Source: a virus. Taken from it: DNA of 64,000 nt. Where the stretch lies: IMG/VR virus record IMGVR_UViG_3300035680_001201, positions 1-64,000 of that record; one strand, 5' to 3'. The notes below the pieces were generated by a model. The model had not been told where the DNA came from, did no database searches, and was given only the letters and a program-made list of their open reading frames with translations. The translations under genes and the position numbers were made by a program. Positions 1-63,692 of this stretch are shown here, piece after piece; the stretch's first letter is position 1, and the number at the start of each line of letters is the position of its first letter.

Positions 1-2312
1 CATCAGGTACAAGTGGTACGTCAGGTACAACTGGTACATCGGGTACATCGGGTACATCGGGTACATCAGGCACAAGTGGTACTTCGGGTACATCAGGCAC
101 AAGTGGAACCTCGGGTACATCAGGTACATCAGGTACTTCAGGTACTTCAGGTAGAGATGGTACATCGGGTACAAGTGGTACATCAGGTACATCAGGTACG
201 TCAGGTACTTCTGGTACATCGGGTACAAGTGGAACCTCGGGTACAAGTGGTACATCGGGTACAAGTGGTACAAGTGGTACATCAGGTACAAGTGGTACAT
301 CGGGTACATCGGGTACAAGTGGAACCTCGGGTACAAGTGGTACATCGGGTACAAGTGGAACTTCCGGTATAGATGGTCAAGTAGGAATGTTTGGCGGTAA
401 TTCAGTATTGTATAGATACGCAAGCGTAGCTAAGGATCCAGATTATTATCCAGTCTTCGCAGCAGAAGCATGTTTCCCAACTGCTTCGTTCGGTAGTGTT
501 ATTAACGTTGATTACAGATCAATGACTTTATATCCGCCAGGTGATTTTAGTATAACACCAACGACGAATGTAACAAAATGGTGGCAATCTGTATCGGCAT
601 CTGTGCCTGGATATTTAAGAGTCAGTCACGCTTTCAGTTCTAGTAGATTCGTAATCACTAAAGTTACATCCGTACAAGAGTTTGCATCTAGTCCGTTTGT
701 AGGTTTCCAAATAACTGGTACTCCAGTTATGTCATCATCGATTGATCCATTCACCGACAATCTTGCTGAACCCGCTGATCGATTGGTTATGACATGGACA
801 GCAAATGGTGCAAGTGGTACATCGGGTACATCGGGTACATCGGGTACATCGGGTACATCGGGTACATCGGGTACATCGGGTACATCGGGTACATCGGGTA
901 CATCGGGTACATCGGGTACAAGTGGAACCTCAGGTACAAGTGGAACCTCAGGTACATCAGGTACAAGTGGTACATCGGGTACAAGTGGTACATCAGGTAC
1001 AAGTGGTACATCGGGTACATCGGGTACATCGGGTACATCGGGTACATCGGGTACATCAGGTACATCAGGTACAAGTGGTACATCGGGTGCAGCAGGTCAG
1101 AACGCGTCTAACGTTATACAGTGGTTGTACGATACAAACATTCGTGATTCCGCTCCAAACGTAACAACTGTGGCTAGTGGTTCAGCCGGTGCCGTCAGTG
1201 GAAGTTTGTATATATCAGAATACTCATATCCATTTGTTGCTCCGGGAAATAATTATTTTGACTTATTTAATACAATAAATAACGTTAATAATCCTACAAA
1301 AGCAGTCGTTACAGTAACAGCAAAAGATGATCCTACAACATGGCAGATCTATAAAATTACTAGTGCTGCTTATTTTAATTTGAAAAGATATTGGGTTTTC
1401 GGTATCACTGGTCTTGGATCTGGTAATGGAGATAATACATGGGGTACTGTTCAGAATTTGACATTTAGTTTCTCTGGTGAATCTGGAGGAGCTGGGGCAG
1501 CTGGTACTTCGGGTACTTCGGGTGTACAAGGTGCAAGTGGAACCTCGGGTACAAGTGGTACAAGTGGTACTTCAGGTACATCAGGTACAAGTGGTACATC
1601 AGGTAGAAACGGTACATCGGGTACAACTGGTACATCAGGTACAAGTGGTACAAGTGGTACAAGTGGTACTTCGGGTACGTCAGGTACTTCGGGTACATCA
1701 GGTACAAGTGGTACTTCGGGTACATCGGGTACGTCAGGTACTTCGGGTGCACAAGGTCCAAGCGGTACATCTGGTACATCAGGTGCGGGTTCTCCGGGTG
1801 GCAGTGGTTCATCTGGTACAACCGGTACATCGGGTGCCGCTGGTACATCTGGTACAAGTGGAACCTCGGGTACATCGGGTAGAAACGGTACAAGTGGAAC
1901 ATCTGGTACTTCAGGTACTTCAGGTACTTCAGGTACAAGTGGAACCTCGGGTACATCGGGTGCACAAGGTGCACCAGGCGCTGGTGGTGGTGGTGACGTA
2001 ACTGGACAAGCAAGTGGTTTCCAAGACTACTTAGTCAAGTGGGATGACACCAGTGGCAAGGCAATCACTGGATCTCTTTGGGCAGAGTCCTTGGGTGATT
2101 TGTACAGTGCAACTACCGGTTTCGCCGCTATGACATATGGGTTTGTTTGGATTCCATGTGATGCAGGTGCACCAACGGGCGATCTCCTCAATGATGGTCA
2201 AGCTCTTACTTTGACAGCCAACCGTGCTGCTATGTATTGGGATGCCGATGAAAAACGTTTGTACGTTTATGACTCAACAAATGGATGGTCGTACAGTCCA
2301 ATATTTACCTGA
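1..2312 (+). CDS. Collagen-like (Gly-Thr-Ser)n tail fibre protein, 5' end outside window
   Basis: The reading frame is open from base 3 and continues in frame through the Met codon at 387, so that Met is internal and the gene starts left of the window. The visible 769 residues alternate collagen-type Gly-X-Y blocks, almost all Gly-Thr-Ser, with two globular insertions (about 387-810 and 1096-1495). A non-repetitive C-terminal cap (about 1990-2312) ends in a Leu-Tyr-Val-Tyr-Asp-Ser...Trp motif. The second insertion, and less clearly the first, has the 'phrase-Tyr-x-Ile/Val-Thr' beta-rich look of domains interrupting phage collagen-like fibres. The likely role is a trimeric fibre or whisker on the virion. 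The Thr/Ser-dense triplets are plausible O-glycosylation targets, and two glycosyltransferase genes follow directly. The precise virion position is inferred. Confidence 0.85.
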   Translation, partial: SGTSGTSGTTGTSGTSGTSGTSGTSGTSGTSGTSGTSGTSGTSGTSGTSGRDGTSGTSGTSGTSGTSGTSGTSGTSGTSGTSGTSGTSGTSGTSGTSGTSGTSGTSGTSGTSGTSGTSGTSGIDGQVGMFGGNSVLYRYASVAKDPDYYPVFAAEACFPTASFGSVINVDYRSMTLYPPGDFSITPTTNVTKWWQSVSASVPGYLRVSHAFSSSRFVITKVTSVQEFASSPFVGFQITGTPVMSSSIDPFTDNLAEPADRLVMTWTANGASGTSGTSGTSGTSGTSGTSGTSGTSGTSGTSGTSGTSGTSGTSGTSGTSGTSGTSGTSGTSGTSGTSGTSGTSGTSGTSGTSGTSGTSGTSGAAGQNASNVIQWLYDTNIRDSAPNVTTVASGSAGAVSGSLYISEYSYPFVAPGNNYFDLFNTINNVNNPTKAVVTVTAKDDPTTWQIYKITSAAYFNLKRYWVFGITGLGSGNGDNTWGTVQNLTFSFSGESGGAGAAGTSGTSGVQGASGTSGTSGTSGTSGTSGTSGTSGRNGTSGTTGTSGTSGTSGTSGTSGTSGTSGTSGTSGTSGTSGTSGTSGAQGPSGTSGTSGAGSPGGSGSSGTTGTSGAAGTSGTSGTSGTSGRNGTSGTSGTSGTSGTSGTSGTSGTSGAQGAPGAGGGGDVTGQASGFQDYLVKWDDTSGKAITGSLWAESLGDLYSATTGFAAMTYGFVWIPCDAGAPTGDLLNDGQALTLTANRAAMYWDADEKRLYVYDSTNGWSYSPIFT
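3..377 (+). repeat. Collagen-type GTS-coding repeat block 1
   Basis: About 375 bp of 9-bp units (ggt-aca-tcN / ggt-aca-agt) encode Gly-Thr-Ser triplets, with one Gly-Arg-Asp-Gly break. It continues leftwards out of the window. Synonymous codons (tca, tcg, agt, tct) are mixed, which reduces perfect identity between units. Confidence 0.95.
816..1085 (+). repeat. Collagen-type GTS-coding repeat block 2, with 11 perfect 9-bp units
   Basis: The block opens with eleven consecutive identical units ggtacatcg (816-914), then changes to mixed synonymous units. The perfect part looks recently expanded by slippage, because the codons are identical and not only the amino acids. A length change in steps of 9 bp would keep the frame. 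Confidence 0.95.
1503..1980 (+). repeat. Collagen-type GTS-coding repeat block 3
   Basis: Gly-X-Y coding repeat, mainly Gly-Thr-Ser, with occasional Gly-Arg-Asn-Gly, Gly-Ala-Gln-Gly and Gly-Pro-Ser breaks. It leads into the C-terminal cap of the fibre protein. Units are synonymously diverse, so it looks older than block 2. Confidence 0.93.
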
Positions 2313-2371
2313 GAATAACGATTGAAAAATTAAAATAAATTTTAGTGGTCATTGATCACTATTTTAATATA

Positions 2372-4804
2372 ATGAGTTATAAAATTTTATATATCACTCC
2401 TCATTTATCTACTGGGGGGTGTCCGCAGTATCTTTTGAAGAAACTGAATGTATTAAAAGATACACATAAGTTATATTGTGTTGAGTATAACAATTACGGT
2501 GAGTGGTTCATAGTACAAAAGACTCAAGTACGTGAACTGCTTGGTGATTGTTATCATGTATTGGGAGATAACAAGCATCAATTGTTATCGATTATAGATG
2601 ATATTCAACCGGACATAATACATTTGGAGGAGATGCCAGAGTATTTTATGTCGGATGATGTTACTGCGAAGGTGTATAACAATGAACGTAAGTATCATAT
2701 TGTTGAGACATCCCACGACAGCAGTTTTAATTCTGCTAACAAGCGATTTTTTCCGGATCGGTTTGTATTTGTTAGCAACTATCAAAAAAATGCATTGAGT
2801 GTACTTAATGTACCTTCACATGTAATTGAGTATCCAATATACATTAAGGATAAGGCGAGCAATCGTGATGAAGTTCTTAGAAAGTTGGGATTGGATCCGT
2901 CGTTGTTGCATATTGTTAATGTTGGTTTGTGGTCGCGTCGTAAGAATCAGGGTGAAATTATTGAATATGCTAATAAGATGTTAGATTGTCCGGTGCAGTT
3001 TCATTTTGTTGGAAACACCGCTGGAAATTTTGAATCATATTGGTCACCGTTGCTTAAGAATTTGCCAAAGAACTGTAAGGCGTGGGGTGAACGTAATGAT
3101 GTTGATACGTTTTACAGTTGTATGGATTTGTTTTTGTTTACGAGTCGTGGAAGTGAGAATGATAAAGAGACTAGTCCGATTGTAATACGAGAGGCGATTA
3201 GTTATAAGATACCATCGTTGATATATAATTTGCCTGTATATTTGAACATGTATAACAGATATTCAAATATTTCTTATTTGTCGAATGATTTGAATGACAA
3301 TGTTAAAAAGATCAAGTCGTGTTTGAATATTCAGAATAAAAAGCGTAACTATGCTTATGTTGTTTCGACGTATCCAACGACATCTGTTGAATTTGATACT
3401 ACAGTACAGTGTTTGAATGCTTTGAGTGATTCGGAGACTATATTGACGACCCATCATTCTGATTATGAGAAGTTTAACACTATAGCTAATAGTGTTGTGT
3501 ATGATGTTAGTAATCCTATAATCAAGCATAATTTTTATTGTAAGTATTGGTATCGTGATAATGTGTTTGACTTTGATTTGAATTTGAAGAAGAACGACAA
3601 TGATAATTATCATGGGTTGGCTGTTTGGACCAATTATCAGAATGGTATACGTAAGTCTAAGGAGTTGGGTTATAAGTACAGTGTATGTTTGAATTATGAT
3701 ATAGTATTGAGTGGCGGTGATTTGAGTGTAATTGGTACTATTGTTAATGATTTGGAAGTGTCTAAGAGCAAGGGGTATTTTATCCATGAAGTTATGGGTG
3801 AAGGAGACACGTTAAAAACTGTATTTTTTGTAATTGACAATGATTATTTCATAGAAAAGTTTGAGAGGGTTGATACTGAGAGTGAGTATAATGCTAGTCT
3901 TGTGAAATATAATTCTCCGTCGAATGGTTTGGAGAATTATGTTTATAATGTATTAAAGAATGATTTGAGCAGTTTTACTTTGACTAAAGACAAGGAAGAG
4001 AAGATATTTCCGAATAGTTCTTTGAATGCGTTTTCTAGGGTAGAATATTTCTCAGTGGTACCAAACGATGATTTGTCTAGTTTTTATATTTGGAAGAGTT
4101 CTAATAATGTAGTTGATAACAAGTCGGTGAGTATCAGAGTATATGAAGATAACAAGATAGTATTAAAAGTTGCTTATCAACAGTTAATGAATGGTATTTT
4201 TTATCAACCGGTCAAATATAAGACTGGAAGTAAATACCTTGTTATGTTGGAAGAATATAATTCTGATTTGAAGGTTATTGATAGAAGGAACATTGAATTT
4301 AGTGATATTAATCAGATACGAGACAATGGTAAGTTTACATTGATGCCTCGTTCGGCAGTGAATGCGTCGAACACGATTAATATACACCATGTTAATCCAA
4401 ACGATATTTTGTTTAATGATTTATCAGAACTAAGTGCGCATAAATGTGTTTATCGTAATTACATTCAAAGTTCTGAGATTGATGTGGTGAACAATTTGTT
4501 TAATTATAACAACAATATAAATGTGGTAATTAAGAATGTTCAATTGAATGTAAAGTCTGAAGAGTTTGTTCAGAGTGTTCGTCAGGCTCACAAGTATTTG
4601 GTTGATAACCATGAATCCGTTCTTGGTTTGGTTATTGGTGATACTCCTTATATTGGCATGAGTCCGTATTACAAGTCTAGCAAAAAGAATGTGGATGTGT
4701 ATGTGATTAATAATAATCATTTGCATCAATTTAAAACAATTGGATCATTATCTGATTTGCATAGTTATATCAAAATTTTTACAACTAAGTCATTGGCTAA
4801 ATAA
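2372..4804 (+). CDS. Large multidomain glycosyltransferase (GT4-type N-terminal domain)
   Basis: An 810-residue protein. I place the start at the ATG at 2372, because the sequence from there begins with the usual GT-B beta strand (Lys-Ile-Leu-Tyr-Ile-Thr-Pro); a GTG at 2345 would only add nine unlikely residues. Residues about 1-310 look like a GT4 GT-B enzyme. There is a Gly-Leu-Trp-Ser-Arg-Arg-Lys-Asn donor-site strand near 185 and an acidic Glu-x7-Glu region near 265-275. The middle (about 325-540) resembles a GT-A-like fold with a Tyr-Asp acidic strand, and the C-terminal 250 residues are beta-rich and unrecognised. It lies between the collagen-like fibre gene and a second fused transferase with only 2 bp to the latter, so it probably acts with that enzyme. 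The acceptor is unknown; fibre modification is an inference from position. Confidence 0.7.
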   Translation: MSYKILYITPHLSTGGCPQYLLKKLNVLKDTHKLYCVEYNNYGEWFIVQKTQVRELLGDCYHVLGDNKHQLLSIIDDIQPDIIHLEEMPEYFMSDDVTAKVYNNERKYHIVETSHDSSFNSANKRFFPDRFVFVSNYQKNALSVLNVPSHVIEYPIYIKDKASNRDEVLRKLGLDPSLLHIVNVGLWSRRKNQGEIIEYANKMLDCPVQFHFVGNTAGNFESYWSPLLKNLPKNCKAWGERNDVDTFYSCMDLFLFTSRGSENDKETSPIVIREAISYKIPSLIYNLPVYLNMYNRYSNISYLSNDLNDNVKKIKSCLNIQNKKRNYAYVVSTYPTTSVEFDTTVQCLNALSDSETILTTHHSDYEKFNTIANSVVYDVSNPIIKHNFYCKYWYRDNVFDFDLNLKKNDNDNYHGLAVWTNYQNGIRKSKELGYKYSVCLNYDIVLSGGDLSVIGTIVNDLEVSKSKGYFIHEVMGEGDTLKTVFFVIDNDYFIEKFERVDTESEYNASLVKYNSPSNGLENYVYNVLKNDLSSFTLTKDKEEKIFPNSSLNAFSRVEYFSVVPNDDLSSFYIWKSSNNVVDNKSVSIRVYEDNKIVLKVAYQQLMNGIFYQPVKYKTGSKYLVMLEEYNSDLKVIDRRNIEFSDINQIRDNGKFTLMPRSAVNASNTINIHHVNPNDILFNDLSELSAHKCVYRNYIQSSEIDVVNNLFNYNNNINVVIKNVQLNVKSEEFVQSVRQAHKYLVDNHESVLGLVIGDTPYIGMSPYYKSSKKNVDVYVINNNHLHQFKTIGSLSDLHSYIKIFTTKSLAK

Positions 4805-4806
4805 AT

Positions 4807-6903
4807 ATGAGAATTTGTCAAGTTACACCGGGATTGATATCGATACCACCAAATGGTTGGGGAGCTATAGAAAAGATTATATGGGAATATAAGCAATCAT
4901 TGGAAAGAATGGGTCATGTTTGTGACATTAAATATTTGGATGATGTTAAAGTTGAAAACTATGATGTAGTTCATATTCATGTTGCTAATTTGGCTTTACT
5001 TGCACATGAACGTAAAATTCCTTATGTGTTTACCATGCACGATCATCATACTGAAGTATATGGTGATCAGTCTGCATTATATAATCAGAATCGTGAGGCG
5101 ATGGAAAAGTCTATAATTTCCTTTGTTCCTGCCACTCATTTGGTTTCGTATTTTAATAGTAGACGTGTAAAGTATTTGCGTCATGGTGCTAACACATCAT
5201 TTTTTACTCCGGGTGATCCTAATAATAAAAAACATAAGTTGTTGTGTGTTGGAAGAAACGGATTACATGCAAACATGTCATTTGACCGTAAAGGGTTTGT
5301 TTATGCAATTGAGGCAGCTCGTAAGCATGATCTTGAATTGACTATTGCTGGTCCATCTGCTAATAAAGAGTTTTTTGAAACCAACAAAGATTTCAAGCCG
5401 TATGACAAAGTGAAATTTTTGTATGATTTGAACGAAAAAGATTTGGTTGAAGTTTATCGTGATCATACTATTTTTCTACATCCATCGTCAGTTGAGGCCG
5501 GTCATCCTAATTTGACGTTGGTTGAAGCTATGTCATGTGCACTTCCGGTAGTTTCTACATATGATACTGATGCTTTGCCAGGCATGGTTAAGATAGAACG
5601 TAATGTTGAATCAGTATATAAAGGAATATCTACTGTAATGAATAACTGGCAGCAATTGCGACGAGATGCGTTAACATATGCTAAATCGAATGATTGGAAC
5701 TTTGTTGTTGATGATTTGATCAAAGAGTATAGAAAAGTGGATGAATATCGTATGAAAAACGAACTGAACGATGTTTATGATCAAACACTTATGAATGTCA
5801 AGCAACACCAGAGTGCGAAGATCACAATTGATTATTGTGATGGAGCTTATATTTCTATAAACGGTGGCGATCCATCAACTAAGTACGATTTTGATTTTGT
5901 TGATGAAAATACTGGTACTTCATTATTTGGTGGCACGTTAAAATCAAATGAATGGTCTCGGTGTTTTGTGAAGCGTTTTATTCCGTACAACATTAAAATT
6001 AGTTCGGGGTCAAAATTAATTTTGGATAGTAAGTTAGATTTGAAAAACAAAAACGTGTTGATTTGTTTGGATACACGATCATTGGGTGATTGTATTGCTT
6101 GGTTTCCGTATGTAGAGGAGTTTAGAAAGAAACATGGGTGCAATATCACGTGTGCAACAAATTGGAGCACATTGTTTCAAGACAATTATCCTGACATTAA
6201 GTTTTGTGGATTAGAATGGCATGGTGATTTTTACGCCGTTTACCGAATTGGTTGTTATCCTGATAAACATCGTTCATTTTATACATATAAAGAGGTTACA
6301 TTACAGAAATTGTCATCTTCGATATTGGGACTTGATCATACAGACATTAAACCAAAAATTTCTGTTAGAAATAAGAATCGTCTTGTTGAAGATCGTTATG
6401 TTTGTTTTGCCACACATTCTACTTCGCAGGCTAAGTTTTGGAATAATCCTACTGGTTGGCAGGAAATGTGTGATTATTTGAATAGTATTGGTTTGAAACC
6501 AATGTTGATTCAGTTGGAAGAAAAGAATGATATTACTAATATTATTAACAAGTCTGGTGCAAAGGATATACACGAAACTATAAATTTGTTGTATAACTGT
6601 GAATTCTTTGTTGGAATTGGATCGGGGTTATCATGGTTGTCATGGGCATTGAATAAGCCAACGGTTTTGGTGAGTGGATTTAGTTTACCAGAGAGTGAGT
6701 TTTATACACCTTACCGTGTTATTAACAAAGACGTGTGTCATGGTTGTTGGAATGATTGTGATTTTGATAAGGGTGATTGGAATTGGTGCCCTCGACAAAA
6801 GGGTACTGATAGACAGTTTGAGTGTTCTAAACAAATTAGTTCTCAAATGGTTATAGATAAAATCAATGACCTTATTAAGACTGAAAGTATACGCACCTCT
6901 TGA
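4807..6903 (+). CDS. Fused GT4 glycosyltransferase and BAHT/TibC-like O-heptosyltransferase
   Basis: A 698-residue protein with two catalytic halves. Residues 1-310 form a GT4 GT-B domain: Pro-Pro-Asn-Gly-Trp-Gly-Ala near the N-terminus, His-Pro-Ser-Ser-Val-Glu-Ala and a later Glu in the donor site. Residues about 335-690 resemble bacterial autotransporter heptosyltransferases (BAHT: Aah, TibC). There is a beta-rich stretch, then a GT9-like half with Asp-Thr-Arg-Ser-Leu-Gly-Asp and Gly-Ile-Gly-Ser-Gly-Leu-Ser-Trp. A cysteine cluster follows (Cys644, 647, 651, 661, 673), placed like the iron-finger of TibC. BAHT enzymes heptosylate Ser in beta-helical autotransporters; here the adjacent Gly-Thr-Ser fibre is the obvious candidate acceptor. 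The GT4 half might extend the first sugar. The sugar donor cannot be read from sequence. Confidence 0.75.
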   Translation: MRICQVTPGLISIPPNGWGAIEKIIWEYKQSLERMGHVCDIKYLDDVKVENYDVVHIHVANLALLAHERKIPYVFTMHDHHTEVYGDQSALYNQNREAMEKSIISFVPATHLVSYFNSRRVKYLRHGANTSFFTPGDPNNKKHKLLCVGRNGLHANMSFDRKGFVYAIEAARKHDLELTIAGPSANKEFFETNKDFKPYDKVKFLYDLNEKDLVEVYRDHTIFLHPSSVEAGHPNLTLVEAMSCALPVVSTYDTDALPGMVKIERNVESVYKGISTVMNNWQQLRRDALTYAKSNDWNFVVDDLIKEYRKVDEYRMKNELNDVYDQTLMNVKQHQSAKITIDYCDGAYISINGGDPSTKYDFDFVDENTGTSLFGGTLKSNEWSRCFVKRFIPYNIKISSGSKLILDSKLDLKNKNVLICLDTRSLGDCIAWFPYVEEFRKKHGCNITCATNWSTLFQDNYPDIKFCGLEWHGDFYAVYRIGCYPDKHRSFYTYKEVTLQKLSSSILGLDHTDIKPKISVRNKNRLVEDRYVCFATHSTSQAKFWNNPTGWQEMCDYLNSIGLKPMLIQLEEKNDITNIINKSGAKDIHETINLLYNCEFFVGIGSGLSWLSWALNKPTVLVSGFSLPESEFYTPYRVINKDVCHGCWNDCDFDKGDWNWCPRQKGTDRQFECSKQISSQMVIDKINDLIKTESIRTS

Positions 6904-7122: not shown

Positions 7123-10100
7123 ATGCCAATTACAGAAGGGGGTACATTTACTCCACATAATCCAATAGTGAGTCCGGGCGTTTTTAGTCGTGAAAACGAC
7201 CTATCAGGTCTCGCTCAGGGTGTTGCTGATATTGGTGGAGCAATTGTCGCTCCCTTTCCAAAGGGACCGGGTTTTGCTCCAACAGTTGTCACCAGCGTTG
7301 CTGAGTTAGAAGAAAAATTTGGTGTAGCGGACGGAGTATATTACGGTCCTTACACTGCTAAACAATATCTACAAGAACAAGGTCTTGTGACTGTGTGTCG
7401 TGTAGGTGCGTTAACAGGTTACGAACAAGATAATCCGTTTGTGATTTACGCAATTCCGGGTTATTATAATCGTGCCACCGAAAGTGGTTCATTTACCGCT
7501 TTGGGAACTGCTGATTCATCATATATTGCTCTTGATCCTGATGATATCATGGTCAATATTCAATATGTCAGTTCTAGTGCAACTGAAACATTGACGATTA
7601 CTGGTAGTTTGTACGCAAACTTTGAAACCAGTTCATTCTCAGTGTACAACCCACCGGGAACACCAGGCAACAAGACATATACCACTCGTTACATCGGTGA
7701 TGTACATTTTACATTTGATGCTGCGCACTTTGAAATCAGTTCAAGTTATCAAGGTGACGGATCACTTAGTGCAGATGCTAAGTTGTTGCGTGCTCTTGCT
7801 GAACAAACCGGAAAGTTCTCTGGAAGTTTGGCAACAAGCAGCAGTTTGGTTAAGTTGAGTGATGATTTCCCTGTGTCTGGTACCGCATCTGAAGTTATTA
7901 TCAATAACATCAGTTTTGCTAAATATCGTCCAGCTAATAGCTGTGGTGTTCAAATTCAATTGACATGTAACATTAGCGGTAGTTTTGGTAAATACACTTC
8001 ATTTGTTGAAACTACGGTTTCTGGTGGAGATCCTTGTAATGATGGTGTTGCTCGTGAGTCTATAGTTTTAGCTGTATTGGCAAATACACAAAATGCAGCC
8101 ATTCAATCTGATGCCAATAACAAATTGGCACAAGTTGTATATGGATTTGAGGGTTCTGCTTTAAGTAAGAAGATTGCAACATCAGGATTGTACAGTGGTA
8201 GTATTGATCCGACCGCACAAGACTTTGTTCTTGATTTGCGTTATAACATCGGTGGTACAAGTGGAAGTTACGGAATCTATGAATTCTCATTGGATCCAGC
8301 AAGTTCTAATTATATTACCAACGTGTTTGGATCTGATCCAACTGCTGGTGATCCAGCAAAACAAGTTGCTGGTCAAAAGATTGAAGCTGCTTATTTATAT
8401 AAGATCTTCAAGGATACAATTGGACGTATTGTTCAAGAAGCAACAGATCCATCTGATGGATGGTTGATTGTTGGTAGTTCAGCTCCATATGTTCCATCTG
8501 GGGGTGCAAATGAACTTACCTTTAATGGTAATCCAATGAAGTTTACTGACGACTACGGTTACGCACCAACAACTGGTGATAGTGATTTTAGTTTGAAGTG
8601 GGCATCAACACCTTGGATTAACTCACAACAAGTTGCACCATTTACTGGTACATCAGATGTAACTGCACAACCACAACGTTTCCCATTATTCCGTGTTCAC
8701 ACTCTTGCTGACGGAACCAATATGAACACGTCATACAAGATCGAAATCAGTGATGTAAAACTCGCTGGTACCGTTACTGGTAGTGATTATGGTTCATTTA
8801 CATTGGCAGTACGTAAGTTTAGTGATACTGATAAGAATCCTAAGTATTTGGAACGTTTCCAAAACTTGAATCTTGATCCTGATAGCAGCAACTTCATTGC
8901 TCGTCGTATTGGTGATCGTTACAACTATATTTCTTACTCCGGTAAGATTATTGAGTTTGGTACGTATTCCAATTTGAGTAAGAATATTCGTATTGAAATG
9001 ACCGAGAACGTGTATCCAATATCAGCAGTTCCTTACGGATTTGATGCTCTTGCTACACCACTTGGTGGTAACGTCGGTGGATATTTGCCACCAGTTCAAT
9101 TCAGTCGCGCATCAACATATTCAACTGCTCCGGGTAGATATCCATCTGGTATTGTATTCGGTGAACCACCAATTGGTGCAGCTGATGATTTGTTGGCATT
9201 GTATCCTACATCATCACTTGGTGTATACAGTGTATATAACGACAATATTCAATACTTTGCTCCATTGCCTTCTTATGAAGGATTTAGTTCAATTGGCAAC
9301 AATGTTGTATTTGACCTTGAAACAGGTGATACATACAATCCAGTTGGTTCTAAACAACCAGATGTTCAAAACGACAGTGCTGGTATTCCATCAACTTATG
9401 ACGCTGCATACGAATCAACCCGTGTGAAGATGCGTAAGTTTATACTTGGATTCCAAGGTGGATTTGATGGTCAATCACCAGCAATTCCAATCAACGTTGG
9501 ATCTGATATCATTCCAGGCAACACGCAAGGTTTGAACTGTACTAGTATTACAAGTCCAGGCAGTATTGCTTACAGACAATGTATTGGTGCACTAGGTAAT
9601 GCTGACGAGTTTGATATTAACTTGATTGTGACTCCGGGTATCTTCTATCAACACCACAGTTATGTGGCACAGTTGACAATTGATATGTGTGAAGCACGTG
9701 GTGATTGTTTCTATATCATGGATAACGTGGTATTCCCTAAGAGCAATCAAAGCGTTGGATTGATTGATGCTGCTATTAATGTGGCTGCTACAATTGACAG
9801 CAGTTACGTTGCTACATACTATCCATGGGTCAAGATTCTTGATACCAATTTGAACAAGATTGTTAGTGTTCCACCATCAGTTGTTCTACCTGCTATCTAC
9901 GCAGCAAACGATAAAGCATCTGCTGAATGGTTTGCTCCAGCTGGTTTAAACCGTGGTGGTATTACACAAGCAGTTCAAGTGTTGGATCGTTTGACACACG
10001 GTGAACGTGATACCCTCTATGAAGGTCGTGTGAACCCAATTGCAGCATTCCCCGGTCAGGGTATCTGTGTATGGGGTCAAAAAACTCTTCAAATTGCCCC

Positions 10101-10428
10101 AAGTGCATTGGATCGTATCAATGTTCGTCGTTTGATGATCAACTTGAAGAAGTTTATTGCTTCAAGTTCACGTTTCTTGATTTTCGAACAGAACGTCGCA
10201 AATACACGTAACCGTTTCTTGAGTATTGTAAATCCTTACCTTGAACAGGTTCAACAACGTAGTGGTGTGTACGCTTTCCAAGTGAAGATGGATGAAACAA
10301 ATAATACACCTGATTTGATTGATAGAAATATCCTTTATGGTCAAATCTTCCTACAACCAACCAAGACTGCTGAATTCATTATTCTTGATTTCAACATCTT
10401 GCCTACGGGTGCATCGTTCGGTGCTTAA
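7123..10428 (+). CDS. gp18: Contractile tail sheath protein
   Basis: A 1101-residue protein, longer than the roughly 660-residue T4 gp18, as is common in large phages. The N-terminus has the sheath-type 'Ser-Pro-Gly-Val-Phe-Ser-Arg-Glu-Asn-Asp' opening. The C-terminal 130 residues carry the conserved sheath core: an Asn-x-Arg-Arg-Leu-Met-Ile-Asn-Leu-Lys-Lys helix, Phe-Glu-Gln-Asn-Val-Ala-Asn-Thr-Arg, and a final beta strand (Ala-Glu-Phe-Ile-Ile-Leu-Asp-Phe-Asn). The middle is a large variable beta-rich insertion (about 120-700) that would be exposed on the sheath surface. It has a good ribosome site (gaaagg) and its own upstream TATTTATA box. An intrinsic terminator follows directly, so it is probably a monocistronic, highly expressed late transcript. 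Confidence 0.95.
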   Translation: MPITEGGTFTPHNPIVSPGVFSRENDLSGLAQGVADIGGAIVAPFPKGPGFAPTVVTSVAELEEKFGVADGVYYGPYTAKQYLQEQGLVTVCRVGALTGYEQDNPFVIYAIPGYYNRATESGSFTALGTADSSYIALDPDDIMVNIQYVSSSATETLTITGSLYANFETSSFSVYNPPGTPGNKTYTTRYIGDVHFTFDAAHFEISSSYQGDGSLSADAKLLRALAEQTGKFSGSLATSSSLVKLSDDFPVSGTASEVIINNISFAKYRPANSCGVQIQLTCNISGSFGKYTSFVETTVSGGDPCNDGVARESIVLAVLANTQNAAIQSDANNKLAQVVYGFEGSALSKKIATSGLYSGSIDPTAQDFVLDLRYNIGGTSGSYGIYEFSLDPASSNYITNVFGSDPTAGDPAKQVAGQKIEAAYLYKIFKDTIGRIVQEATDPSDGWLIVGSSAPYVPSGGANELTFNGNPMKFTDDYGYAPTTGDSDFSLKWASTPWINSQQVAPFTGTSDVTAQPQRFPLFRVHTLADGTNMNTSYKIEISDVKLAGTVTGSDYGSFTLAVRKFSDTDKNPKYLERFQNLNLDPDSSNFIARRIGDRYNYISYSGKIIEFGTYSNLSKNIRIEMTENVYPISAVPYGFDALATPLGGNVGGYLPPVQFSRASTYSTAPGRYPSGIVFGEPPIGAADDLLALYPTSSLGVYSVYNDNIQYFAPLPSYEGFSSIGNNVVFDLETGDTYNPVGSKQPDVQNDSAGIPSTYDAAYESTRVKMRKFILGFQGGFDGQSPAIPINVGSDIIPGNTQGLNCTSITSPGSIAYRQCIGALGNADEFDINLIVTPGIFYQHHSYVAQLTIDMCEARGDCFYIMDNVVFPKSNQSVGLIDAAINVAATIDSSYVATYYPWVKILDTNLNKIVSVPPSVVLPAIYAANDKASAEWFAPAGLNRGGITQAVQVLDRLTHGERDTLYEGRVNPIAAFPGQGICVWGQKTLQIAPSALDRINVRRLMINLKKFIASSSRFLIFEQNVANTRNRFLSIVNPYLEQVQQRSGVYAFQVKMDETNNTPDLIDRNILYGQIFLQPTKTAEFIILDFNILPTGASFGA

Positions 10429-10555: not shown

Positions 10556-12343
10556 ATGCCTTATAAAAGATGTAATCAATGTAAAAAAAGATTGAGCGAT
10601 AATCATAGTAATTTTTTTTGTAATATTATATGTGAAAATTTGTATGTAAATTCATCAGATATTTTTTGTAAATTTTGCAACGTCCTATTAGGAAAACAGT
10701 CTACAATTAAAAATAAAATTTTTTGTAATACTGTGTGTCATAATAAGCATCAACAAAAAACAAATTTAGAAAATAGAAATTGCATCTATTGTAATACTAC
10801 TTTTGTAGTTACGAGAAGTTCTAAAAGAAAAAAATTATGTTCACCTGAATGTGAAACGTTTCATGCTAAATCAAGTGAAAGAAACGACAAACGAAAAAAT
10901 ACATTAATTCAAAATAATTTAGAAAAATACGGCGTAGAAAGTATTTTTTCGTTGAAAGAGGTACAAGAAAAATCTAAAAAAACAAAATTAAATAAATATG
11001 GACATGAATATTTTAATAATAACGAGATTGCTAAACAAACAAAATTAAATAAATATGGAACTTTAGATTTTAGTGATAAAGCAAACAAAACAAAATTAAA
11101 AAAGTACGGTACTTTAAATGTAAACGATAAATCAAAACGGACTAAACTAGATAAATATGGTACATTAGATTTTAGTAATAAAGCAAACAAAACAAAATTA
11201 GACAGATATGGCACTAAAAACTTTAGTAACAAAGCTAAAAAAACAACTATAGAAAAATATGGGTCATATTCAAATATTTTATTAAAAAAATCATTTAAAC
11301 GATTAGAAGAAAAATATTCATCAATTGTTAAATTTTTATTTTCAGAAGATGAATATGTTGGTGTGAATGAATATAAAAAATATAAATTTGAATGTTTAAG
11401 ATGTTCTAATATTTTTGTAGATGATATGTGTAATGGTAGTTCGCCTATTTGCAGAATTTGTAATCCAATAACAAGTAATATTTCAAGTGAAGAAAAAGAA
11501 ATTTTATCTTATATAAAAACAATTTGTGATGCTGAAATTATAGAGAATGATAGAAATACATTAAATGGACAAGAAATTGATATTTTAATACCAAACTTAA
11601 ATTTGGGTATCGAATATAACGGAATATACTGGCATAGTGAACTTGTTGGCGGTAAAGATAAACACTATCATTTAAACAAAACTAAGTTATCACTTGATAA
11701 AAATATTCAATTGATGCACATATGGGATTGGGAATGGCGGTGCAAAAACTCTATAATTAAAAGTATTTTGATTAATAAGATGGGTAAATCTGCGAAAGTT
11801 TATGCACGAAAATGTGTGGTTAAAGAAGTGTCAAATGAAGATAAATCAACCTTTTTGGAAGACAATCATATACAGGGAGATGATACGTCATCAGTACGAT
11901 TAGGGTTATATCATAACAACGCATTGGTTTCTATAATGACATTTGTCAAATCCAGATACGATAAAAAATATCAATACGAACTATCTAGATATTGCAATTT
12001 GTTAAACACAAATATTGTGGGAGGATCTTCTAAGTTATTCACGCATTTTATTAAAAATTATGATGTGAGTTCAGTTGTGACTTACAGCGATAAACGTTTA
12101 TTTACAGGAAAAGTTTACGAAAGGTTGGGTATGCGGAGGTTGAAAAATACTCCCTGTGGTTATCATTATTTTCATAAAAATAACGGTATTCCAATGAATA
12201 GAACTCATTTTCAAAAACACAAGCTTAATAGAATCTTAGAAAAGTTTGATAGTGGTTTGAGTGAATGGCAGAACATGCAAATTAATGGTTATGATCGCAT
12301 ATGGGACTGTGGACACTTTAAGTTTGAATGGACACGAAAATAA
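10556..12343 (+). CDS. Homing-endonuclease-like protein with zinc fingers and tandem DNA-binding repeats
   Basis: A 595-residue protein. The first 110 residues carry several Cys-x2-Cys pairs (Cys7/10, 22/26, 38/41 and further pairs), which look like treble-clef or zinc-ribbon fingers. Residues about 140-240 hold about six tandem copies of a roughly 17-residue unit around Thr-Lys-Leu-x-Lys-Tyr-Gly-Thr. Such Lys-Tyr-Gly units occur in phage homing nucleases as DNA-binding modules. A further Cys-x2-Cys pair lies near 285-300. After about 345 a nuclease-like core appears: Glu-Ile-Asp-Ile-Leu-Ile-Pro, Gly-Ile-Glu-Tyr-Asn-Gly-Ile-Tyr-Trp-His, then His-Ile-Trp-Asp-Trp-Glu-Trp, as in Vsr/PD-(D/E)xK-type homing enzymes. 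It is more AT-rich than the flanking virion genes and is bracketed by matching terminators, as expected for a mobile insertion. No intron boundaries are visible, so it looks free-standing. Confidence 0.8.
   Translation: MPYKRCNQCKKRLSDNHSNFFCNIICENLYVNSSDIFCKFCNVLLGKQSTIKNKIFCNTVCHNKHQQKTNLENRNCIYCNTTFVVTRSSKRKKLCSPECETFHAKSSERNDKRKNTLIQNNLEKYGVESIFSLKEVQEKSKKTKLNKYGHEYFNNNEIAKQTKLNKYGTLDFSDKANKTKLKKYGTLNVNDKSKRTKLDKYGTLDFSNKANKTKLDRYGTKNFSNKAKKTTIEKYGSYSNILLKKSFKRLEEKYSSIVKFLFSEDEYVGVNEYKKYKFECLRCSNIFVDDMCNGSSPICRICNPITSNISSEEKEILSYIKTICDAEIIENDRNTLNGQEIDILIPNLNLGIEYNGIYWHSELVGGKDKHYHLNKTKLSLDKNIQLMHIWDWEWRCKNSIIKSILINKMGKSAKVYARKCVVKEVSNEDKSTFLEDNHIQGDDTSSVRLGLYHNNALVSIMTFVKSRYDKKYQYELSRYCNLLNTNIVGGSSKLFTHFIKNYDVSSVVTYSDKRLFTGKVYERLGMRRLKNTPCGYHYFHKNNGIPMNRTHFQKHKLNRILEKFDSGLSEWQNMQINGYDRIWDCGHFKFEWTRK
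10979..11270 (+). repeat. Tandem 51-bp repeats encoding a Thr-Lys-Leu-x-Lys-Tyr-Gly unit
   Basis: About six units of 17 residues (51 bp), each with Lys-Leu-x-Lys/Arg-Tyr-Gly-Thr followed by a Phe-Ser-x-Lys-Ala linker. At DNA level the copies share long stretches such as aaaacaaaatta. This suggests recent internal duplication within the homing-endonuclease-like gene. Confidence 0.8.
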
Positions 12344-41910: not shown

Positions 41911-42192
41911 ATGAAGAGAAAACATTACTATTATTTTGAATTGGCTAAGGGAGATGGTTATCTTTTATATGATGGGGAGAATCTAATAAAATTAGATTCT
42001 CCTCTTTCTATTGGCGATGAACGTGAAGTTAAGAATGCAGTAACTAAACTTCCTAAAGATAAAAACGGTAAAATGCCAATTGTGACTTATTCTGAACTAA
42101 CAGATGTTAAGATATCATCATCTAAGATAGTGTTTGACTTTAAGCGTGGTACTACTATAGACTTTGAAGAACGAAACAAAAAGAAAACCTAA
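41911..42192 (+). CDS. Small hypothetical protein
   Basis: A 93-residue, basic protein of beta-rich character (His-Tyr-Tyr-Tyr-Phe-Glu-Leu, Lys-Ile-Val-Phe-Asp-Phe-Lys). It has no recognisable motif. Its TAA overlaps the ATG of the next gene (taatg), so the two are translationally coupled. Confidence 0.6.
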   Translation: MKRKHYYYFELAKGDGYLLYDGENLIKLDSPLSIGDEREVKNAVTKLPKDKNGKMPIVTYSELTDVKISSSKIVFDFKRGTTIDFEERNKKKT

Positions 42193-43367
42193 TGAATCAA
42201 TTTTTCCAAATAGACGATTTTCCATATGACGTAGAAAAACAAAAGTTCATAGACAATATGAACTATTTGAAGTCTATGAGCGTAGAAGAAGCTACGTTTT
42301 ATAAGAAATGGGAAGAGGTCAGAGAATATCGTAACTTTGCGTCCCGATCAGATGATGTTAAGTATAAAATCTGGAAGCCAACTGATATTTACAATGAAGA
42401 ATTGACGTTGAAAGAATTGGATGAATTGAATCCTACTATGGTTCATGTTGAAACGGAACAACAAGAATTGGATTGGTTGATGTTGCGTGTATTTTGTCAT
42501 ACGATGGAGTTTAGTCAAACTCCGGGTAGGTTTTTGAAGTTTCTCATCACAGACGGTAACAGTGAGCGCACACGGTACCTAGGAGCGGTTTCTGTATCAA
42601 GTGACGTTATTACCATTACGGATCGTGACAAGTATATTGGATGGACTCCAAAGAACAAGTTGGAAGAGGGCAAATTGACGCATAGTGCGATTGGAAGTTG
42701 TATTATGAGTACTCAGCCGTTTGGATATAATTTTTTAGGTGGTAAGTTGGTTGCGTGTTTGGTCACATCATCTGTGGTTAGAGATGTTTGGAAGAAACTT
42801 TATAATCAAACTTTGGTTGGCATGACTACTACTAGTTTATATGGTAGTTATAGTATGTATAATAGTTTGAAATGGTGGCACAAGTGTGGTACAAGTACTG
42901 GTAAAATACCTATTAAGCCAGACGACCATGTATATCAGATTTGGCATGATTGGATCAAGGAGAACAAATCTGAGGAATATACCAAGAAAATGACACAAAA
43001 GGATGATGTGTCTGGACCAGTAACAGGTGCTAAACAGCGAGTTATAAGCATGATATTTCAGGAATTGAATATTAAAACTCAAAATTATGTTCATGGGTAT
43101 GAGCGTGGTGTCTACTATAGTAGTTTTTATGAAAATACCAAGGAATTCTTACAAAACAAGGTAAATGAAGACCAACTGGTGATGAAAAAGTTGTTTTTTG
43201 ATGATAAAAAGGCTATTTTGGACTGGTGGAAAGTAAAAGCCAAAGATAGATATTTGAAATTGAAGTCTGAAAATAACCTTAAGAAGGACATATTGTACTA
43301 TAACTCTATAATGGATATGTCATATAACACCGCTAAGAGTAATTTTTTTCAAGAGGTTGGTAGATAA
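42192..43367 (+). CDS. Unknown protein, possibly DUF4338/DruA-like
   Basis: A 391-residue protein. A central segment (about 115-225) has an Arg-Tyr-Leu-Gly-Ala-Val-Ser strand, then Thr-Asp-Arg-Asp-Lys-Tyr-Ile-Gly-Trp. It continues with Gly-Gly-Lys-Leu-Val-Ala-Cys-Leu and ends in Gly-Met-Thr-Thr-Thr-Ser-Leu-Tyr-Gly. The 'Leu-Gly-Ala...Arg-Asp-x-x-Ile-Gly-Trp' layout recalls DUF4338, the family of the Druantia protein DruA, but the match is by eye and partial. The flanking N- and C-terminal regions are helical and charged. It is coupled to the upstream 93-residue protein and ends before a TATTTATA box. A GNAT-like or nucleic-acid-modifying role is possible but unproven. Confidence 0.5.
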   Translation: MNQFFQIDDFPYDVEKQKFIDNMNYLKSMSVEEATFYKKWEEVREYRNFASRSDDVKYKIWKPTDIYNEELTLKELDELNPTMVHVETEQQELDWLMLRVFCHTMEFSQTPGRFLKFLITDGNSERTRYLGAVSVSSDVITITDRDKYIGWTPKNKLEEGKLTHSAIGSCIMSTQPFGYNFLGGKLVACLVTSSVVRDVWKKLYNQTLVGMTTTSLYGSYSMYNSLKWWHKCGTSTGKIPIKPDDHVYQIWHDWIKENKSEEYTKKMTQKDDVSGPVTGAKQRVISMIFQELNIKTQNYVHGYERGVYYSSFYENTKEFLQNKVNEDQLVMKKLFFDDKKAILDWWKVKAKDRYLKLKSENNLKKDILYYNSIMDMSYNTAKSNFFQEVGR

Positions 43368-46460: not shown

Positions 46461-47115
46461 ACTTTATATTGGAATATCAGGAGTAGCAAGATCTGGAAAA
46501 AATCTGTTTTGCGACATTTCTAAGAAAATTATATCTGAAAAATATGGATTGACATGTAGTTCATATGCACTTGCATTTTCTTTAAAGAACGATTGTAAAG
46601 AGTTTGTCAAAGATAAATTGGGATTGGATGTATTTACAGAAGAGACTGAAGAAAAAAAGATCTTTAGAGAAATGCTTGTTTGGTATGGTGATGTCAAACG
46701 TAAACAATCACATGGACGGTATTGGACTGAAAAGCTTCAATCTGAAATGGAAAAGGATGATTCTGATGTTATTTTTATAACTGACATACGTTATAACTTT
46801 TATCCTAAAGATGAGGTATATTGGATCAACAATGATTTGAACGGTAAGTTGATTCACATATCAAAATACACATATGGTTTCCCTACTGATGGTAGACGTA
46901 TTCGTGGTGATATTGCTAATACAAATCAAAAGATTTGGGTAGAACCTGTCAATGATCATGAACGATGGAACGATCCGAAGGTTAAGGCTGAAGCTGATTA
47001 TGTTGTCGAATGGCCTCATGTAAAATCAGAAGGTAAAACTTATCAAGATATAATTAATGATGATCAATTAAATAAGATAATATCACCTATATATGAACGT
47101 ATATTTTCCGTATGA
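46450..47115 (+). CDS. Deoxynucleoside monophosphate kinase-like P-loop protein
   Basis: A 221-residue protein. The N-terminal P-loop Gly-Ile-Ser-Gly-Val-Ala-Arg-Ser-Gly-Lys-Asn is followed by a helical lid region with Arg-Glu-Met-Leu-Val-Trp-Tyr-Gly-Asp. An Asp-Ile-Arg-Tyr strand (Ile-Thr-Asp-Ile-Arg-Tyr-Asn) is typical of T4 gp1-like dNMP kinases. It would convert dNMPs to dNDPs and so complement the reductase and dUTPase. It overlaps the genes on both sides by a few bases and thus lies in one transcript with the clamp-loader-like and RmlA genes. Confidence 0.72.
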   Translation: MKNKLYIGISGVARSGKNLFCDISKKIISEKYGLTCSSYALAFSLKNDCKEFVKDKLGLDVFTEETEEKKIFREMLVWYGDVKRKQSHGRYWTEKLQSEMEKDDSDVIFITDIRYNFYPKDEVYWINNDLNGKLIHISKYTYGFPTDGRRIRGDIANTNQKIWVEPVNDHERWNDPKVKAEADYVVEWPHVKSEGKTYQDIINDDQLNKIISPIYERIFSV

Positions 47116-47954
47116 AAGGTATTATTTTATCAGGCGGTACAGGATCTAGGTTATATCCATTGACAACAGTTGTTAATAAACAATTGTTGCCGGTATATGA
47201 TAAACCGATGATTTATTATCCACTATCAACATTAATTTCTTGTGGAATCAAAGATATTTGCATCATATCATCATATGATTTTCTTCCATTGTACCAAAAG
47301 TTATTTGGTGATGGTGAACATTTAGGATTGAATCTGACCTACAAGGTACAACCAAAACCGGATGGTATTGCACAATCGTTTTTGATTGCTGAAGACTTTA
47401 TTGGTAACGACAGTGTTTGTTTGATTTTGGGTGACAATGTGTTTCACGGATTCAACCGTATGAAGGTCGATTTCACCGGTGCGGTAATATTTGCTTATAA
47501 AGTAAACAATCCTCAAGAATATGGTGTAATTGAGTTTGATTCTAACGGCAAAGCGTTGTCTATTGAAGAGAAACCAAAGATGCCTAAAAGCAAATATGCG
47601 GTTCCTGGCCTATATTTTTACGACAATAATGTAATTGAATATTCTAGAATATTGAAACCTTCCAAACGTGGTGAATATGAGATCACCGATATCAACCGTA
47701 GATATATGGAAGAGGGGAATTTGAATGTAGTAAAAATGCCAAAAGGTACGGTTTGGTTGGATGCAGGGTCACCAACAACATTGGGACAAGCAAGTAATTA
47801 TGTACAGACTGTACAAGACCGTCAAGGATGTAAAATTGCATGTATTGAAGAAGAGTGTTTAAATCAAAAATTTATCGATCAAACACAATTTGTTAAATTG
47901 ATAGAAAAAACGCCAAAATCGGAATATAGAAATTATTTAGAATCTGTCATATGA
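47112..47954 (+). CDS. rmlA: Glucose-1-phosphate thymidylyltransferase
   Basis: A 280-residue protein, the usual RmlA length (about 290). The nucleotide-binding start Gly-Ile-Ile-Leu-Ser-Gly-Gly-Thr-Gly-Ser-Arg-Leu-Tyr-Pro-Leu-Thr is complete. So is Lys-Gln-Leu-Leu-Pro-Val-Tyr-Asp-Lys-Pro-Met. The Gln-Pro-Lys-Pro-Asp-Gly-Ile-Ala-Gln substrate loop and Leu-Ile-Leu-Gly-Asp-Asn metal motif follow, then Glu-Ile-Thr-Asp-Ile-Asn near the end. It makes dTDP-glucose from dTTP and glucose-1-phosphate, the first step of deoxysugar synthesis. The ATG overlaps the previous stop (ATGA). Downstream lie reductase, methyltransferase and RmlB genes, forming a sugar cassette. Confidence 0.93.
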   Translation: MKGIILSGGTGSRLYPLTTVVNKQLLPVYDKPMIYYPLSTLISCGIKDICIISSYDFLPLYQKLFGDGEHLGLNLTYKVQPKPDGIAQSFLIAEDFIGNDSVCLILGDNVFHGFNRMKVDFTGAVIFAYKVNNPQEYGVIEFDSNGKALSIEEKPKMPKSKYAVPGLYFYDNNVIEYSRILKPSKRGEYEITDINRRYMEEGNLNVVKMPKGTVWLDAGSPTTLGQASNYVQTVQDRQGCKIACIEEECLNQKFIDQTQFVKLIEKTPKSEYRNYLESVI

Positions 47955-47969
47955 TATATATGAACAGTT

Positions 47970-48836
47970 ATGATTTTACTATTAGGCGCATCTGGTTATA
48001 TTGGCCACGAATTCAATAAACAATTATTTCAAAACGGTCTTCCAGTTAGAACGTGTTCAACTCCTACCAAGGAGTTGACGTATACTCATTTGGATCTGTT
48101 ACATAAAACATTAAAGTTAACAACTATAGTTAACTGTGCTGGATATACAGGCAAACCAAATGTGGATGCTTGTGAAACTGATAAACACAATACCATTTAT
48201 GGAAACGTTGTAGTTCCAGAGATGTTATCAATATTTTGCCGTAACAACGGAATTTTACTTGGACATGTATCGTCTGGGTGTATTTATACAGGACGTAGAT
48301 CAGATGGTACGCCATTCACTGAAAACGACCGTCCAAACTTTAGTTTTGAACAAAACAATTGTAGTTTTTATAGCGGAACTAAAGCACTTGCTGAGGATGT
48401 CATTCGACACAATTGGGGCAATCATTATATTTGGAGACTACGTATTCCATTTGAAGAAAAACACAATCCTCGAAACTATTTGTCCAAGATGTTGAATTAT
48501 AAGAAACTTTTGGATGCTGAAAACTCTATATCTAATAAACAAGATTTTGTTAACGCTTGTGTACAAACTCTTGTTAAAAAGGTTCCATACGGAACATATA
48601 ATGTTACAAATACTGGTTTTGTGACTACTAAACAAGTTATTGAAAAGATGCAAAAAACAATTGCTAAAGACAAGATCTTTGAGTTTTTTGACAATGAAGA
48701 TGACTTTTATAAAACGGCTGTAAAAACACCACGTTCAAACTGTGTGATGAGTAATCAAAAGTTGTTGAATGTGGGAATTAAAATGAGAACCGTGGATGAA
48801 GCATTGGATAATTGTTTAGAAAATTGGAAAGAATAA
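47970..48836 (+). CDS. RmlD-like NDP-sugar reductase/epimerase (SDR family)
   Basis: A 288-residue extended short-chain dehydrogenase. The nucleotide motif Gly-Ala-Ser-Gly-Tyr-Ile-Gly is at the N-terminus. It also has Asn-Cys-Ala-Gly-Tyr-Thr-Gly, a Ser-Ser-Gly-Cys-Ile-Tyr active-site strand, and the catalytic Tyr-Ser-Gly-Thr-Lys. The form resembles RmlD and the bifunctional epimerase/reductase of plant-type rhamnose synthesis (UER-like) more than RmlB. It probably reduces a dTDP-4-keto-6-deoxysugar. It sits 15 bp after rmlA and 1 bp before the methyltransferase. Stereochemistry of the product cannot be inferred. Confidence 0.75.
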   Translation: MILLLGASGYIGHEFNKQLFQNGLPVRTCSTPTKELTYTHLDLLHKTLKLTTIVNCAGYTGKPNVDACETDKHNTIYGNVVVPEMLSIFCRNNGILLGHVSSGCIYTGRRSDGTPFTENDRPNFSFEQNNCSFYSGTKALAEDVIRHNWGNHYIWRLRIPFEEKHNPRNYLSKMLNYKKLLDAENSISNKQDFVNACVQTLVKKVPYGTYNVTNTGFVTTKQVIEKMQKTIAKDKIFEFFDNEDDFYKTAVKTPRSNCVMSNQKLLNVGIKMRTVDEALDNCLENWKE

Positions 48837-48837
48837 T

Positions 48838-50097
48838 ATGAAATACACTGAAAAAGTTAAAAGTTGTAGAGTATCAAATGACCCATTGGTTTCATTGTTT
48901 ACTTTAGGCGATTTGTTTATATCAAACTTTCTCAAGGACCAACCATCGGATGACTATAGGTCGGAAATGAAATTGATGTATTCTCCTACATCAAAGTTGG
49001 TTCAGTTGGAACAAGGCGCAGATCCTAACAAAATGTATGGCCAATATTGGTACCGTTCCGGTACGAATCAGACGATGCGTAATCAACTTAAGAACGTGGT
49101 TGATAGTTGTATGATGGTTCATACTCCAACTGATAATCCACTATGGTTAGATATTGCGTGTAATGATGGAACATTGTTGAGTTATGTACCATCACCATAT
49201 TCACGTTTGGGTATTGATCCCGCCGACGATTCTTATACCAAAGAAAGTGTTAAATTTGCTGATCAAGTAGTTCAGGAGTATTTTTCAAAGAATACGTTTG
49301 ATCGAAGTATTTTTAAAGGACGAAAGTGTGATGTGATTACATGTATCGCAATGTTTTATGATCTTCCGGATCCAGTTGCTTTTCTAAATGATGTATATGA
49401 TGTGTTACACGATGAAGGTTTGTTTGTAGTACAAATGAGTTATACGCCGTTGATGGTTCAACAAATGGCATTTGACAATATTTGTCATGAACATTTGATG
49501 TATTACTCGTTACATTCATTTAAACATGTTATAGAAAAAGCCAAGTTTAAGATTGTAGATTGTGAGTTGAATGATGTTAATGGTGGATCTTTCCGAGTAT
49601 ACTTACAGAAAGATATTGCTAAGGTTACATCATTTGCAACTGCTCCATACCGTGATGTTGCACGTTATCGTATTAACTCTACTTTGGAGTATGAAAACAA
49701 GATTGGAGCAAATACAGTTGAGTTTTATATGAATTTCTATAAGAAACTTCAGGAGTTGAAGGAAAAAACATATAACTTTATCAAACAAGAAAAAGAAAAG
49801 GGTAAGAGCATTTGGGTCTATGGCGCATCAACCAAGGGAAATACTCTTCTTCAATATTTTGGATTGGATAAGACTTTGATTGATGGTGCAGCAGAACGTA
49901 GTCCATATAAGTTTGGACTAAAGACTGTGGGAACTGATATTACAATTTATTCCGAACAAGATATGAGAAAGGCTAACCCAGATTATCTTTTGATATTGCC
50001 ATGGCATTTCATTGATGAATTCAAGAGACGTGAGGCTCCATATCTAATGAGTGGAGGTCATTTTATTGTACCTTGTCCTGTATTTGAAATTGTATGA
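48838..50097 (+). CDS. Deoxysugar C-methyltransferase (NovU/TylCIII/TcaB9-like)
   Basis: A 419-residue protein with the three-part layout of sugar C-methyltransferases. The N-terminal domain is about 1-95; the SAM-binding core is about 96-260, with Leu-Asp-Ile-Ala-Cys-Asn-Asp-Gly-Thr; and the C-terminal domain is about 265-419, with Tyr-Gly-Ala-Ser-Thr-Lys-Gly-Asn-Thr. The catalytic region Ile-Cys-His-Glu-His-Leu-Met-Tyr-Tyr-Ser is intact. Family members normally bind zinc through two Cys-x2-Cys pairs at the N-terminus. Here the first reads Cys-Arg-Val-Ser and the second has no Cys, so the zinc site seems lost. It would add a methyl branch to a dTDP-4-keto-deoxysugar made by RmlA and RmlB. 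Its stop overlaps the rmlB start. Confidence 0.82.
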   Translation: MKYTEKVKSCRVSNDPLVSLFTLGDLFISNFLKDQPSDDYRSEMKLMYSPTSKLVQLEQGADPNKMYGQYWYRSGTNQTMRNQLKNVVDSCMMVHTPTDNPLWLDIACNDGTLLSYVPSPYSRLGIDPADDSYTKESVKFADQVVQEYFSKNTFDRSIFKGRKCDVITCIAMFYDLPDPVAFLNDVYDVLHDEGLFVVQMSYTPLMVQQMAFDNICHEHLMYYSLHSFKHVIEKAKFKIVDCELNDVNGGSFRVYLQKDIAKVTSFATAPYRDVARYRINSTLEYENKIGANTVEFYMNFYKKLQELKEKTYNFIKQEKEKGKSIWVYGASTKGNTLLQYFGLDKTLIDGAAERSPYKFGLKTVGTDITIYSEQDMRKANPDYLLILPWHFIDEFKRREAPYLMSGGHFIVPCPVFEIV

Positions 50098-53913: not shown

Positions 53914-53935
53914 AGTTTTACAGGTGTGTGATTAC

Positions 53936-55500: not shown

Positions 55501-55535
55501 ATAACTATTTTTTATTATCTGTTGTAAATTATATT

Positions 55536-57776: not shown

Positions 57777-57815
57777 ATCACGATATTATGAATAACGTTT
57801 TTAAATGAAGTAGTT

Positions 57816-58406: not shown

Positions 58407-58409
58407 AAA

Positions 58410-60079: not shown

Positions 60080-60082
60080 AAC

Positions 60083-63691: not shown

Positions 63692-63692
63692 A

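Follow-up and report, generated by a model that had tools for sequence, protein, structure and literature searches.

Some phages glycosylate virion proteins using glycosyltransferases of their own. Among the bacterial BAHT (Aah/TibC-type) enzymes, TibC and AAH modify serine, not threonine; in TibC, Arg286 contacts the adenine and is required for activity, and Pro300 selects D,D-heptose (PMC4358343). Glycans are also found on collagen-like proteins, and those of the bacterial protein BclA are believed to help hydration of the helix (PMC8968730). Here we describe a phage locus in which a BAHT domain, fused to a GT4 glycosyltransferase domain, is encoded beside a collagen-like tail fibre. From the association of the two across viral genomes, we consider it probable that the phage enzyme O-glycosylates serine residues of the phage's own fibre, with the GT4 domains probably lengthening the glycan.

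The locus opens the window, the 64,000-nt stretch of DNA analysed here, which comprises positions 1-64000 of the 126,384-base virus contig IMGVR_UViG_3300035680_001201 from a freshwater phage. Four genes follow one another on the plus strand: the 3' part of the collagen-like fibre gene (3-2312), a GT4-type (GT-B) glycosyltransferase gene (2345-4804, 819 aa), the GT4-BAHT fusion (4807-6903, 698 aa), and a gene for a tail sheath protein (7123-10428; Phage_sheath_1 and Phage_sheath_1C). The initial annotation had correctly placed two large transferases right after the fibre, but missed the sheath gene directly downstream of them, which places the BAHT locus in a contractile-tail module. About 220 bases separate the fusion and sheath genes in the window, which lacks the second, standalone BAHT-like gene, devoid of a beta-barrel, seen between them in four relatives (L006:5180-6025, L007:5362-6177, L009:5169-5993 and L318:6015-6860). 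An HNH/homing endonuclease gene (10556-12343, plus strand) lies right behind the sheath gene, and farther into the phage genome an ORF at 42192-43367 (plus strand) matches Druantia DruA (PF14236, 81.5 bits). A search for nucleotide-level relatives of the window among named phages found none; by tail sheath, the nearest named phage is the cultured Microcystis phage Mel-JY01, at 62%.

The C-terminal half of the fusion is, by sequence and fold, a BAHT-family domain and not an ordinary GT9 enzyme. Residues 333-688 (5803-6903, plus strand) match TIGR04414 (hepto_Aah_TibC) at 335.2 bits against a cut-off of 200, spanning positions 6-373 of the 374 in the model, and TibC (4rap/4rb4) is the domain's only PDB relative by sequence (E 2e-70). 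An AlphaFold model of the fusion (pLDDT 87.7) aligns with TibC at a TM of 0.87 by target length and contains the N-terminal beta-barrel domain, with strands at residues 338-409, so that the comparison with TibC suggested by the initial annotation came out in its favour. With the key TibC residues (catalytic, iron finger, donor contacts) taken from PMC4358343, the predicted catalytic residues are Asp428, Lys543 and Trp610, equivalent to TibC Asp110, Lys230 and Trp305; the Asp and Trp are present in 84 of 84 aligned rows and the Lys in 81 of 84. The cysteine cluster noticed at the outset (Cys644, 647, 661 and 673) is exactly as described: it aligns with TibC Cys339, 342, 358 and 370, is invariant in all 84 rows, and by this correspondence would form an iron finger. 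An ordinary GT9 or LPS heptosyltransferase lacking such a finger, the outcome that would have spoken against the annotation, is ruled out, as GT9 and heptosyltransferase models score at most 27 bits.

Residues 1 to about 310-330 of the fusion (4807-5800, plus strand) form the GT4 domain (Pfam Glycos_transf_1, 7e-14), which has 33 viral relatives. The neighbouring 819-residue protein likewise carries a GT4 domain at its N-terminus (Glycos_transf_1, 3.8e-8), followed by a long C-terminal region without an assigned role. The best PDB matches of its AlphaFold model (pLDDT 86.5) are the GT4 enzymes BshA/HepE, which supports a general GT4 assignment only. Homologues of this protein are present in most BAHT loci, making it a recurrent neighbour of the domain.

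What sugar might the phage enzyme transfer? The initial annotation called it a BAHT/TibC-like O-heptosyltransferase, which holds for the family but goes too far as regards heptose. The position of TibC Arg286 is occupied by Thr591; it is Arg in 29 of the 84 rows and varies among the viral relatives. The position of Pro300 is Gly in the window and Gly or Ser in nearly all rows. The thumb region of the fusion is about eight residues shorter than that of TibC, with Phe265-Val266 of TibC aligned to Asp-Ile, and the hydrophobic beta-hairpin thumb involved in TibC ring assembly was looked for in the fusion model, which has no hairpin; some other phage BAHT members have longer thumb regions. Given the Arg-to-Thr replacement and the shorter thumb, TibC-like ring chemistry cannot be assumed, and the shortened thumb leads us to class the fusion as the carrier of a BAHT-family domain rather than as a TibC-like ring enzyme. 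A search of 28 records for an ADP-heptose synthase domain (TIGR02199) gave no match over the cut-off; three weak matches occurred in other records and none in that of the window. An ADP-heptose donor for the phage BAHT can be supplied by the host.

The window phage has sugar genes of its own, namely rmlA, rmlB, an rmlD-like gene, GT6, GT4 and FkbM. A deoxysugar set on the plus strand (47112-51056) holds rmlA and rmlB, both above the curated cut-off, together with the rmlD-like gene and a C-methyltransferase, and another island of sugar genes, on the minus strand (53008-63703), holds GT4, FkbM methyltransferase, GT6-like, YibB-like and DUF3431 genes. In a pattern scan the GT6-like gene had only three IMG/VR relatives, and its use as a neighbourhood control was dropped for want of loci. 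This wealth of sugar genes, the replacement of the adenine-binding Arg, and the frequent fusion of BAHT domains to other transferases would also suit a cluster that builds a host surface lipid or LPS glycan, or that decorates DNA or another small target for takeover or superinfection exclusion, the protein specificity of the BAHT domain having been lost. We regard such a role as unlikely: the domain has retained both the beta-barrel and the iron finger, elements that TibC uses for its assembly and for handling the acceptor (PMC4358343), and the association of the BAHT genes is with fibres of a single composition class and does not extend to phages in general.

The fibre ORF is open at its 5' end, where the start of the contig cuts the gene. 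Its 770 residues within the window include 106 GTS triplets, 154 Ser and 150 Thr, bearing out the Thr/Ser-rich Gly-Thr-Ser fibre of the initial annotation. The GTS arrays, at about 3-370, 805-1090 and 1500-2010, alternate with globular inserts and give way to a C-terminal globular end. The Gly-X-Y arrays come with the hallmarks of phage fibres (PF01391, 161.7 bits; PHROG tail fiber families; tandem repeats) and may form a triple helix. The fibres of close relatives terminate in a Peptidase_S74 chaperone, a mark typical of phage fibres and spikes. Overlooked at first was that the fibre extends far beyond the window. The longer contig IMGVR_UViG_3300044624_002142 is identical to the window contig over the 6,484 bases compared, and in it the fibre frame is still open at 5,275 residues, a lower bound, with 1,142 GTS triplets, 1,358 Ser and 1,353 Thr. 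Repeat lengths assembled from metagenomes are unsafe and both contigs break inside a GTS array, making the exact length of the fibre uncertain. Given that these contigs and the Mel-JY01 record all start inside an array, as is typical of assembly breaks, the giant array could be taken for an assembly artefact and the true fibre for a short, ordinary one. We find this extremely improbable, since the two contigs agree base for base across the compared stretch, the repeat units differ in sequence, and arrays of 1,000-3,000 residues occur in unrelated records; only the exact length is in doubt.

BAHT relatives pair with GTS/GSS collagen-like fibres far above chance in diverse phages. The BAHT loci sampled were the 80 nearest to the window, and the records were mostly fragments. 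A Gly-X-Y gene lay in the fetched stretch of 28 of 50 BAHT locus clusters (dereplication at 90%), compared with 5 of 80 random viral stretches that were about half as long. Among whole records, 29 of 30 that bear a BAHT matched Pfam collagen at E <= 0.001, as did 4 of 25 random viral contigs; with the three random contigs that exceed the curated collagen cut-off, the comparison gives p 4e-11. The co-occurrence proposed as a check by the initial annotation is thus borne out. Among relatives by tail sheath of at least 50 kb, collagen was found in all 17 with a BAHT and in one of eight without (18/22 and 2/17 when shorter fragments are counted too), and a further 13 BAHT-bearing records outside the sheath relatives are diverse, with collagen in 12. 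On the sheath tree, BAHT presence changes about three times, leaving two to three independent comparisons within the clade, none of them discordant, a number too small for significance.

The partner fibres are also distinctive in composition, holding Ser mainly at one position of the triplet and almost no proline. The leading triplet is GTS or GSS in 23 of the 28 BAHT neighbourhoods; among generic viral collagens, picked regardless of their X and Y residues, this is so in 9 of 79. Ser occupies Y in a median of 71% of triplets in BAHT-linked fibres (36 loci), against 2% in the generic collagens; this second comparison includes L593-L595, from the GTS search, and L591, from the generic set, all four of which are excluded from the leading-triplet test. 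In L006 and L007 a BAHT is present and the fibre end is mainly GAQ.

The link is strong in the direction from BAHT to fibre and weak in the direction from fibre to BAHT. Of the 56 records carrying GTS-type arrays, 7 had a BAHT, whereas none of 44 other collagen records did, and 44 of 50 sampled GTS-fibre records, many of them fragments, are without one; the fibre therefore does not require a BAHT. This shortfall, with the variability of both transferase islands and fibres in phages, is what would be expected if receptor-binding genes and glycosyltransferases simply shared hypervariable islands, BAHT and fibre being functionally unlinked. Such hitchhiking has, in our view, only a small chance of accounting for the pairing, which is specific to Ser-rich Gly-X-Y repeats and persists when the genes are tens of kilobases apart. 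The fibre lies within 400 bp of the BAHT gene, on either side, in L016, L027, L032, L036, L041, L070, L078, L591, L593 and L594, but tens of kilobases away in G076 and G077, where it is still of the GTS/GSS type (1,909-1,912 aa, 89% Ser/Thr at X and Y); the pairing is thus not merely local.

In the phage group of the window, the BAHT gene immediately precedes the sheath gene, irrespective of an upstream fibre and even where the fibre is distant, and the GT4-BAHT gene holds this place in those BAHT-bearing relatives that were read closely. One may therefore ask whether the target of the transferase island is the tail sheath, or a structural protein encoded next to it, rather than the fibre, with collagen co-occurring because large phages tend to have both. 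Several observations make this quite improbable. Many BAHT genes adjoin GTS/GSS fibres on fetched stretches that show no sheath match (L591, L593 and L594, for example); both sheath size classes (1,067-1,333 aa) are present in relatives with and without a BAHT alike, with no pattern relating size class to BAHT presence among the sheath relatives; and modification of the sheath would leave the specific GTS composition, with Ser at Y, unexplained.

BAHT-domain relatives, standing alone or fused to GT4 or other domains, are encoded on at least 134 IMG/VR stretches. Named phage records with a BAHT are those of the huge uncultured phages LR756501/3 and LR756504 and that of Mel-JY01 (host Microcystis elabens), which has a GTS/GSS fibre as well, with 84% Ser/Thr at X/Y. 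The Mel-JY01 record (PP395634.1) opens within a 1,016-residue GTS/GSS frame (1-3052), of which only 2519-3052 is annotated as a gene. Another BAHT contig, L577, is filed under an uncultured Bacteroidetes genome, and its neighbouring genes look phage-like.

The collagen-like fibre is the likely acceptor because of the preference of TibC and AAH for Ser, which the fibre composition with Ser at Y fits, the Peptidase_S74 ends, and two negative results. The autotransporter acceptor repeat TIGR04415 was absent from the 25 virus records searched, including the window's, which leaves the phage genome with no match to the usual type of BAHT acceptor; near six bacterial BAHT relatives, no collagen-like gene was found. 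Of the fibre-modification reading in the initial annotation, the BAHT domain, the co-occurrence and the Ser composition stand, and the identity of the acceptor is a matter of association. The term "self-glycosylating" does not apply, as enzyme and fibre are separate proteins. The enzyme family, conserved residues, pairing and composition are computed; the acceptor, sugar, order of transfer and benefit are what we infer in the following model. Fibre chains and enzyme would both be made in the host cytoplasm, so that no export would be needed. During virion production the BAHT domain would attach the first sugar to many Ser residues, at the Y position of Gly-Thr-Ser, and the two GT4 units, one fused to it and one in the adjacent protein, would probably make the glycan longer or add a second linkage. 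The rmlA, rmlB, rmlD-like and other phage sugar genes could feed this extension. A sugar coat would stabilise the proline-poor Gly-X-Y fibre, alter its surface (hydration, adsorption, protease resistance), or both. With hardly any proline, a GTS helix would depend on the kind of help that glycans are believed to give BclA.

A bolder form of this proposal, which we advance tentatively and think rather doubtful as a whole, is that phages have adopted the BAHT enzyme to glycosylate Ser at Y in Gly-Thr-Ser fibres almost devoid of proline, at more than 1,000 positions in each chain and with an altered donor sugar and assembly, and that glycan, in place of proline or hydroxyproline, stabilises the viral collagen. 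If glycosylation of the fibre is correct, glycan-coated collagen-like fibres would be widespread in environmental phages, given the number of BAHT-bearing stretches in one collection, and would have been overlooked by annotation. They would add a new acceptor class to the BAHT family, otherwise known from bacterial adhesins in the sources read, and might explain how proline-poor viral collagens remain folded. Mel-JY01, which is cultured and carries both parts, makes fibre glycosylation directly testable.

How does this locus compare with described systems? No paper on phage BAHTs or GTS fibres was found among open-licence publications. As in phages with self-encoded virion glycosylation, the transferases lie near structural genes, but in the open-licence literature on those phages we found neither a BAHT-type enzyme nor a GTS collagen-like partner described. 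Like Bacillus BclA and mimivirus collagen, Gly-X-Y repeat proteins whose glycans are believed to promote hydration and stability, the phage fibre is a Gly-X-Y protein for which we propose glycosylation; unlike the phage pairing, their description does not include BAHT enzymes (PMC8968730). Whereas the preferred residues of bacterial collagens are Pro at X and Thr at Y (PMC8968730), the phage fibres have Thr or Ser at X, Ser at Y and almost no Pro. The closest counterparts remain Aah and TibC. Unlike these, the phage enzyme is phage-encoded, fused to GT4 (or to FkbM and other domains), and partnered by a Gly-X-Y fibre instead of the AIDA/TibA strand-loop-strand repeat (TIGR04415), and the window enzyme departs from TibC at Arg286 (Thr), Pro300 (Gly) and in its shortened thumb. 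It nevertheless shares with them the full-length domain of beta-barrel, catalytic core and iron finger, including the catalytic Asp, Lys and Trp and the four Cys, and like theirs its gene adjoins that of a repetitive, Ser-rich extracellular fibre.
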